Source: Candidatus Limiplasma pullicola
Lineage (GTDB): Bacteria; Bacillota; Clostridia; Christensenellales; Aristaeellaceae
Reading direction: 5' to 3'
NCBI GenBank assembly: GCA_018710985.1
Contig: DVIV01000039.1
Coordinates: 1 to 49,249 of the forward strand
DNA: 49,249 bases
Made by a program: the position numbers and the translations under genes. The notes under the pieces are model-generated. The model made no database searches, was not told the origin of the DNA, and saw nothing but the letters and a program-made list of their open reading frames with translations. Shown one piece after another: positions 3,691-6,186 of the stretch (its first letter is position 1; every line of letters starts with the position of its first letter).

Positions 3691-6186
3691 ATGAAACAAT
3701 ACCAGGTTACCGGCATGAGCTGCGCGGCGTGCAGCGCGCGCGTGGAAAAGGCCGTTTCAAAGGTGCCGGGGGTCACGTCCTGCTCGGTGAGCCTTCTGAC
3801 CAACAGCATGGGCGTGGAGGGCAGCGCCGCAGAGCAGGCCGTCATCGCGGCGGTGGAGGCCGCGGGCTACGGGGCCAGCGTGAAGGGCGCGGCCAGCGCG
3901 CCCGCCCCGGCGCAGAGCGATCCGCTGGCCGACCACGAAACGCCTGCCCTCAAGCGGCGGCTGTTAAGCTCGCTGGTGTTTCTGGTGCTGCTGATGTACC
4001 TGTCCATGGGCCACATGATGTGGGGCTGGCCCGCGCCGGCCTTCCTTGCGGACAATCCTGTGGCGATGGGGCTGGCCCAGCTGCTTTTGACGGTCATCAT
4101 CATGGTGATCAACCAGCGCTTTTTTATCAGCGGCTTCAAGAGCCTGTGGCACAAAAGCCCCAACATGGACACGCTGGTGGCGCTGGGCTCCACGGCCTCG
4201 TTCGTCTACAGCGTGTATGCGCTCTTCGCAATGACCGGCGCGCAGGCCCGGGGCGACGCCGCGCAGGCGATGAGCTGGATGCACGAATTCTATTTTGAAT
4301 CCGCCGCCATGATCCTGACGCTGATCACCGTGGGCAAGATGCTGGAGGCCCGCTCCAAAGGCCGCACCACCGACGCGCTCAAAGGGCTGATGAAGCTGGC
4401 CCCGCAGACCGCCACTTTGATGATCGACGGTCAGGAGCGCACCGTGCCCATCGCCCAGGTACAAACAGGCGATGTCTTCGTGGTGCGCCCCGGCGAGAAC
4501 ATCCCCGTGGACGGTGTGGTGCTGGAAGGGCACAGCGCGGTGAACGAGTCCGCGCTCACGGGCGAGAGCATCCCTGTGGACAAGGCCGAGGGCGACGCCG
4601 TATCGGCCGCCACGGTGAACCAGTCGGGTTATTTGCGCTGCCGTGCCACCCGCGTGGGTGAGGACACCACGCTGTCGCAGATCATCCGCATGGTCAGCGA
4701 CGCGGCGGCTACCAAGGCGCCCATCGCCAAGGTCGCCGACCGGGTGAGCGGCGTGTTTGTGCCGGTGGTCATCGGCATTGCGCTACTTGCCACGGCCGTA
4801 TGGCTGGTGACGGGCGCGGACTTCGGCTACGCGCTGGCGCGGGGCATTTCGGTGCTGGTCATCAGCTGCCCGTGCGCGCTGGGACTGGCCACGCCGGTGG
4901 CCATCATGGTGGGCAACGGCAAGGGGGCCAAGAACGGCATTCTGTTCAAAACCGCCGTATCGCTGGAGGAGGCCGGAAAGGTGCGCGTGGTGGCGCTGGA
5001 CAAAACCGGCACCATCACCACGGGCCAGCCCCGCGTGACCGACGTGCTGCCCGCCCCCGGCGTAACGGAGGAGGCGCTCATTGCCGCGGCCTACGCGCTG
5101 GAGCAAAGGAGCGAGCATCCCCTGGCCCGCGCCGTGGTGGAGCGGGCGGAGTCGCTGCAGTTGAAGGCGCAGGAGGTTTCCGGCTTTACGGCCCTGCCCG
5201 GCAACGGCCTGACCGCCATGCTGGACGGCGAGACGCTCTCCGGCGGCAGCCTGACCTTTATCTCCGGCCGGACCGAGGTTTCCGGGGACATGCGCGCTCA
5301 GGCCGACCGCCTGAGCGGCGAGGGCAAAACGCCGCTTCTGTTCTGCCGGGGCGGCAGGCTGCTGGGCATGATCGCCGTGGCCGACGCCATCAAGCCCGAA
5401 AGCCCGCAGGCCGTGCGCGAGCTACAAAACATGGGCGTTCGCGTCGTCATGCTCACCGGCGACAACCAGCGCACCGCCGAGGCCATCGGCCGCCAGGCGG
5501 GCGTGGACCAGGTGATCGCCGGGGTGCTGCCAGACGGCAAGGAAAGCGTGATCCGCTCGCTGCAATCGCAGGGCAAGGTGGCCATGGTGGGCGACGGCAT
5601 CAACGACGCGCCCGCGCTGACGCGCGCGGATATCGGCATCGCCATCGGCGCCGGCACGGATGTGGCCATCGACGCGGCGGATGTGGTGCTGATGAACAGC
5701 CGCCTCACCGATGTGCCCGCCGCCATCCGCCTGAGCCGCGCCACGCTTCGCAACATCCATGAAAACCTGTTCTGGGCCTTTATCTACAACATCATCGGCA
5801 TCCCGCTGGCAGCAGGCGTGTTCATTCCCCTGCTGGGCTGGCAGCTCAACCCCATGTTCGGCGCCGCAGCCATGAGCCTGTCCAGCTTCTGCGTCGTCTC
5901 CAACGCGCTGCGCCTGAACCTGTTTGACCCGCACAGCGCGCGGAAGGACCATAAAATCAAATTTGCGAAGGAGCGAAAAACCATGGAAAAAACCCTGAAA
6001 ATCGAAGGCATGATGTGCACCCACTGTTCCGGCCGCGTCAAAAAGGCGCTGGAGGAAGTGCCCGGCGTCCTCTCCGCCGAGGTGAGCCATGAAAGCGGCA
6101 CCGCCGTGGTGACGCTCGATGCGCCCGTGGACGATGCCGTGCTCAAAAAGGCCGTGGAGGAGCAGGGCTACCAGGTGGTTGGCTAA
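3691..6186 (+). CDS. copA: Cu(+)-exporting P1B-type ATPase with C-terminal CopZ-like domain
   Basis: An 831-residue Cu(I) efflux ATPase. An N-terminal HMA domain (GMSCAAC, Cys11/Cys14) is followed by eight expected membrane helices. Visible motifs are the actuator TGE (about 290), the membrane CPC (about 393-395), the phosphorylation loop DKTGT (Asp437), the nucleotide-binding SEHP (about 475) and the hinge GDGINDAP (about 634). A second HMA domain (GMMCTHC, Cys776/Cys779) is fused at the far C-terminus after a Lys-rich linker, an unusual place. An in-frame ATG at 5983 with its own Shine-Dalgarno could release this domain as a separate chaperone. Start chosen at 3691, where GGAAAGGAG precedes ATG; an upstream in-frame ATG overlaps csoR and lacks a site. 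Confidence 0.95.
5983..6186 (+). CDS. copZ: CopZ-like copper chaperone, nested in-frame in copA (internal start)
   Basis: A 67-residue HMA domain starting with [15 protein letters not shown], in the same frame as the end of copA. A canonical ribosome site, AAGGAG (5968-5973), stands 9 bases before ATG 5983, exactly as for an independent gene. Size and sequence match free CopZ chaperones, which hand Cu(I) to CopA or CsoR. No stop codon separates it from the ATPase, so it can be made as a fusion, as a free protein, or both. The arrangement could also be a stop-codon loss that fused a former downstream copZ. The sequence is clear; free expression is inference. Confidence 0.6.

Follow-up and report, generated by a model that had tools for sequence, protein, structure and literature searches.

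A conserved start signal inside copA genes of Clostridia-like type suggests a copper pump and a free CopZ-like protein from one gene

In E. coli, the small copper chaperone derived from copA by frameshifting is the N-terminal end of the CopA pump. By programmed frameshifting, that gene yields both the pump and a CopZ-like chaperone (Meydan 2017 and Drees 2017, as cited in PMC10187127 and PMC7558416). The two citing articles also describe separate copA and copZ genes within one operon. A further precedent comes from an unrelated system, in which an in-frame internal start within cas8 gives rise to the C-terminal part of the protein as a separate subunit, Cas11; the authors who describe it deduce from the stoichiometry of the complexes that, in some types, this start must be more effective than the first (PMC11899642).

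The copA gene described here shares features with each of these arrangements. Like E. coli copA, it would furnish a pump and a small copper chaperone from a single gene, but here the small product would be the C-terminal end and would arise by internal initiation, whereas E. coli uses frameshifting. The initial annotation had proposed such a parallel with a different mechanism, and this is supported: in contrast to the E. coli type, whose small product is N-terminal, a conserved signal precedes a C-terminal, CopZ-like HMA domain. As in Cas8/Cas11, an in-frame internal start is placed so that the C-terminal domain could be made on its own, although the product is in this case predicted, the gene and its function are different, and full-length CopA also possesses an N-terminal domain of the same fold. 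The likeness to copA/copZ operons lies in the two products, in a copZ just downstream with its own Shine-Dalgarno (SD) sequence and often in a copper-sensing regulator; unlike those operons, there is no stop between the genes here, so that a fusion protein would also be made.

The gene resides in a window of 49,249 nucleotides, the whole stretch of DNA analysed, from Candidatus Limiplasma pullicola. A sigma-70-like promoter (3293..3321, + strand; 12/12 consensus bases, a consensus match only) is predicted upstream of a csoR-copA unit that opens with a CsoR-type metal-sensing repressor of 100 residues (3368..3670, + strand), which matches PF02583 at 100 bits against a cut-off of 22.8 and stays below threshold with the more specific NCBIfam models for repressors. 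The unit is closed by an intrinsic terminator, a stem-loop followed by a U tract (6199..6250, + strand), with a folding energy of -40.8 kcal/mol for 6195-6252 (z -8.28); this very stable structure was missed by a simple terminator scanner. Between them, copA (3691..6186, + strand) extends from an ATG at 3691 to a stop at 6184-6186 and encodes 831 residues. The listed open reading frame begins earlier, at an ATG at 3658, and the start at 3691 has AAAGGAG upstream, a 6-nt SD match at seven bases. The product scores 599.8 bits with TIGR01511 (cut-off 397), and its translation contains HMA, CPC and DKTG motifs, which we take to be marks of a Cu+-type P1B ATPase. Because an N-terminal HMA domain (3700..3870, + strand; 61.1 bits) is present besides the C-terminal, CopZ-like one (5992..6171, + strand; PF00403, 65.8 bits), the architecture is HMA-ATPase-HMA. 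The same genome carries a second copA, L002 (contig C3:127849-130428), which likewise has the HMA-ATPase-HMA order and an internal start signal of its own with an SD of 5 nt; a CsoR-like gene, recognized by eye, lies upstream of it. There is no obvious separate soluble CopZ among the five HMA matches in this genome, the fifth of which is a 79-residue frame adjoining another P-type ATPase.

Near the 3′ end of copA, the internal SD AAGGAG (5968..5973, + strand) is followed after nine bases (5974-5982) by an ATG at 5983, which opens a nested, in-frame copZ-like reading frame of 67 codons and a stop (5983..6186, + strand; PF00403). As the initial annotation had stated, this ATG is in frame with copA with no stop between, which can be read directly from the sequence. 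The internal SD comprises 6 nt and is as long as the match in front of copA itself. The start region folds at -5.6, compared with -3.46 in its own shuffles (z -1.13), and is therefore no less folded than its composition predicts, with the SD itself in a loop. An error in the assembly that conceals a stop or frameshift between copA and the HMA domain, raised at the outset as a way in which the fusion could prove spurious, is unlikely: the gene in L094, which is 98% identical, and many fused relatives are arranged alike.

The csoR-copA mRNA would very probably be translated into both a CopA-CopZ fusion and free CopZ, the latter by internal initiation. Ribosomes starting at 3691 would produce the 831-residue pump with the CopZ-like domain tethered at its C terminus, while other ribosomes would engage the internal SD and ATG (5968-5973 and 5983) and release a free CopZ-like protein of 67 residues in the same frame. 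In the cytosol, the free protein would act as a Cu(I) carrier that probably serves the pump and may also serve the CsoR-type repressor. We infer the initiation at 5983, as well as the amount and role of the free product, from features of the gene and its relatives. The earlier suggestion of a fusion together with a free chaperone gains support from comparative evidence, namely the SD and start in 188/224 fused genes, the choice of codons and the CopZ-like profile of the domain.

Relatives were drawn from 80 named loci, 30 loci found in 60 near genomes, loci of a wider set (200 genomes belonging to the order, 299 to the phylum) and 150 further regions. They were selected by similarity to the CopA of the window, with neither the internal Met nor the SD as a criterion, and one of the six peptide patterns used for the 80 named loci falls within the C-terminal HMA; given both this pattern and the similarity-based choice, the fused fraction is not an unbiased frequency. 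From 315 loci, one was dropped for lack of the pump C terminus and three as duplicates, and the 311 retained comprise 224 fused genes, 28 split ones whose copZ lies separately downstream, 55 in which no copZ was found over the 600 nt that follow, and 4 that are truncated. When a stop between the CopA body and the HMA domain was sought, 28/311 loci were found to be split and 224/311 fused. Fusion is no peculiarity of the window's copA, and the initial view of a C-terminal HMA on CopA as a rarity does not hold here: it is common in the sampled relatives, and an N-terminal HMA is there as well. A first anchor, NALRL, had recovered 212 fused genes and missed those with another end motif; a relaxed anchor raised the number to 224. 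The set of 212 underlies the 22-codon background, codon phases, resampling, Lys-Glu counts, folding and GC values, and trees; the set of 224 underlies the count of 188, the HMA profiles, the identity-filtered representatives, SD strength and spacing.

The internal signal was defined as an ATG situated 5-26 codons (or a GTG or TTG 5-12 codons) ahead of the HMA motif and preceded by an SD, a run of 5 nt or more from TAAGGAGGTGA whose end lies 3-12 nt upstream of the start codon. So defined, it occurs in 188/224 fused genes (187 with ATG, one with GTG), each combining an in-frame start and SD with an autonomous C-terminal domain, as in internal in-frame translation of the Cas8/Cas11 kind. Of the 36/224 genes that lack it, 19 do have an ATG nearby, with an SD of 0 or 4 nt, whereas 17 have no near start or just a distant ATG without SD; these genes imply that the free product is not indispensable. 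Chance occurrence of the SD is unlikely. Among the first 91 fused genes, an SD of at least 5 nt accompanies 77/91 internal starts, as against 91/2082 other in-frame ATGs and 143/1430 out-of-frame ATGs of the same genes, and in the larger set an ATG with SD is found in 176/212 genes but in 2.8% of equal 22-codon windows of the pump body. Distant representatives keep the signal (80/89 under 65% and 48/54 under 60% identity over the last 400 residues of the body). In 216 genes in which the internal SD can be set against that of copA itself, matches of at least 6 nt number 140 versus 82, of at least 5 nt 182 versus 154, and of at least 4 nt 195 versus 198; on average the internal SD is at least as strong as copA's own.

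What would be released is CopZ-like. The 67-residue product matches PF00403 at 66.9 bits over residues 4-63 and displays the general features of such proteins (a complete HMA domain, MxCxxC, about 70 residues), and the solved CopZ structure 2qif aligns with residues 2-65, nearly the whole length, at an E value of 5.5e-9. We call it CopZ-like rather than a member of CopZ because the NCBIfam equivalog cut-offs are missed (NF047957, 72.6 versus 85; NF033795, 58.8 versus 91). Profiles of C-terminal and N-terminal HMAs, each built from half of its set, separate the two: the C-terminal profile is preferred by 112/112 held-out C-terminal and 0/127 held-out N-terminal HMAs, the held-out halves including close relatives of the training halves. 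It is also preferred by the split CopZ proteins, in all 26 of the 28 that are long enough to score. By this measure, the C-terminal HMAs resemble separate CopZ proteins and not N-terminal HMAs.

The spacing between SD and start is 7-10 nt in 142/188 genes, where the definition permits 3-12 nt. The linkers share little sequence outside the SD site, and where the HMA domain has an N-terminal extension (L058, L187, L220, L274, L283) the SD and ATG precede the extension. Folding at the internal start averages -2.35 kcal/mol, compared with -10.13 kcal/mol for the remaining in-frame Met codons, a comparison that is not matched for composition. The GC content of the start region is 0.34 versus 0.55, lower in 176/176. 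In 116 GC-rich genes, GC3 dips between codons -12 and +9, and a weaker dip is also present in 18 start-less fused genes.

An effect of the protein alone, in which a Lys/Glu-containing linker and a Met are kept for the sake of the fusion and the SD is a by-product, would find some footing in the commonest residues of the linker, which are Lys at -5 (105/188) and Glu at -4 (99/188). It is nonetheless exceedingly improbable. The SD occurs in all three codon phases (n = 176), encoding Lys-Glu or Thr-Glu in 107 cases, Gly-x in 57 and mostly Arg-x in 12, so that one DNA motif is preserved across different residues, and 17 fused genes manage without a near start. Two counts of codon usage weigh against it: synonymous resampling of the 197 ATG-bearing genes (300 rounds) gives 79.3 +/- 5.9 SDs with a maximum of 95, as against 176 observed, a value slightly favored by the observed ATG being the best of its window; and Lys-Glu at the SD site is spelled AAGGAG in 68/84 instances, compared with 127/594 in the bodies and 11/104 elsewhere in the linker and HMA (site versus bodies, Fisher p 1.3e-26, which is optimistic owing to the relatedness of the genes). 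The signal resides in the DNA and not in the protein alone. An SD-like motif could also act on elongating ribosomes, slowing them to aid folding or membrane insertion before the HMA domain is made, with no initiation at all, and its location between two domains, past the final transmembrane helix, fits such a role. This seems equally far from probable: the start lies anywhere from 8 to 137 codons beyond the last-helix anchor (yet 6-21 codons ahead of the HMA motif), the distance of the motif from that anchor varying likewise, and pausing requires neither the ATG, present 5-9 codons ahead of the HMA motif in 197/224 fused genes, nor the AT-rich codons that follow.

The signal might instead be a vestige, the unused start of a former copZ that became joined to copA when the intervening stop was lost, and the 28/311 loci with a separate downstream copZ, whose SD and ATG are similar, speak for this. 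On a FastTree phylogeny of 286 pump bodies, however, fused and unfused states require 7 changes as opposed to a shuffled mean of 67.0, which indicates that most fusions are not recent; a single clade of 74 tips (support 100) holds 67/76 of those that are unfused and the remainder of the tree is mostly fused, the tree being unrooted with a weak backbone and giving no direction between the two states. The linkers have largely turned over, SD and start nevertheless persist in 48/54 representatives under 60% identity, and an unused SD is not expected to retain its spacing and synonymous choice, so that a vestige is very unlikely. Somewhat less remote, but still improbable, is an internal promoter or a processing event that yields a short copZ transcript, with the free product made from a separate mRNA. 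Promoter-like sites are weakly enriched upstream of the internal ATG (22/188 versus 11.4 +/- 3.3 in 20 codon shuffles), and a short mRNA could therefore contribute in some relatives, but no promoter-like site was found on the + strand of the window between 3321 and 6990. Such a transcript would still use the internal SD and ATG, and so the transcript would differ and the product would be the same. Internal initiation explains why the signal is conserved in the DNA, why SD and ATG keep their spacing, why the surroundings look like those of a start and why they resemble the starts of split copZ genes; none of these rivals explains all four.

Split relatives offer a view of the same signal in front of a free-standing gene. 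In 17/28 of their copZ genes, the start with the best SD is 8 codons ahead of the motif, and 27/28 have an SD of at least 5 nt. The stop codon of copA and the ATG of copZ overlap in L195, L326 and L122, and in L221 the ATG follows the stop within a few bases; together with L317, these are loci in which the two genes share bases or almost abut, likely a translationally coupled form. L195 and L326 sit within the mainly fused part of the tree, with their copZ ATG behind a like SD. Among fused genes, the presence or absence of the start changes at least 15 times on the tree, indicating that it was lost (or gained) repeatedly while the fusion was not undone. Two-product copA is probably widespread across the fused genes of Clostridia-like bacteria and would constitute a third route to CopA plus CopZ, beside the E. 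coli frameshift and separate operons, with lineages switching among fused genes with a start, fused genes without one (often with another CopZ-like gene) and split, overlapping genes. A few fused candidates for two products also appear in records titled Treponema, Elusimicrobiales and Coriobacteriaceae.

A soluble, separate CopZ-like gene is present in 8/17 start-less fused genomes and in 1/24 chosen genomes with the start (p 0.0017), or in 7/16 when one sister pair is merged (p 0.0037), in a comparison whose bit threshold was set after viewing the tables and whose genomes are not independent. As the comparison covers mainly matches of 40 bits or more and 11/24 of the genomes with the start belong to the window's genus, the difference is only suggestive of start-less fused genomes more often having another soluble CopZ-like gene. 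Only soluble-looking reading frames with GMxCxxC were counted; counting by HMA score alone was rejected as misleading, since high scores are also reached by Cys-rich HMA proteins and by small HMA frames in the neighborhood of other P-type ATPases. In L126, L128 and L027, a separate small HMA gene comes after a start-less fused copA, with its motif 85-91 nt past the copA stop.

The mechanism is already known from Cas8/Cas11, and among the matches listed from the open-licence literature none describes internal initiation or fusion in copA/copZ. If the proposal is true, gene models that assign one product to copA overlook a small protein that many anaerobes make, and the joint production of a copper pump and its chaperone has been reached in bacteria by three or more genetic routes. 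The fused genes would then offer a widely replicated natural case for SD action inside a translated gene, and the start-less lineages could serve as natural knock-outs for the role of free CopZ.

Some further features of these loci deserve mention. Two C-terminal HMA motifs are found in the fused copA of L022, L079, L124, L129, L130 and L139; of these genes, L124 and L139 have their start signal ahead of the second motif. Cys-rich proteins that end in an HMA domain are present in the window's genus and its relatives; those in L343-L345, L347, L331 and L332 comprise 123-135 residues and have, by eye, a membrane-like N terminus. Within the window, a + strand frame of 900 codons (676-3378) lies opposite a 768-residue, by eye permease-like frame on the - strand (781-3087), and is probably an antisense shadow in GC-rich DNA.
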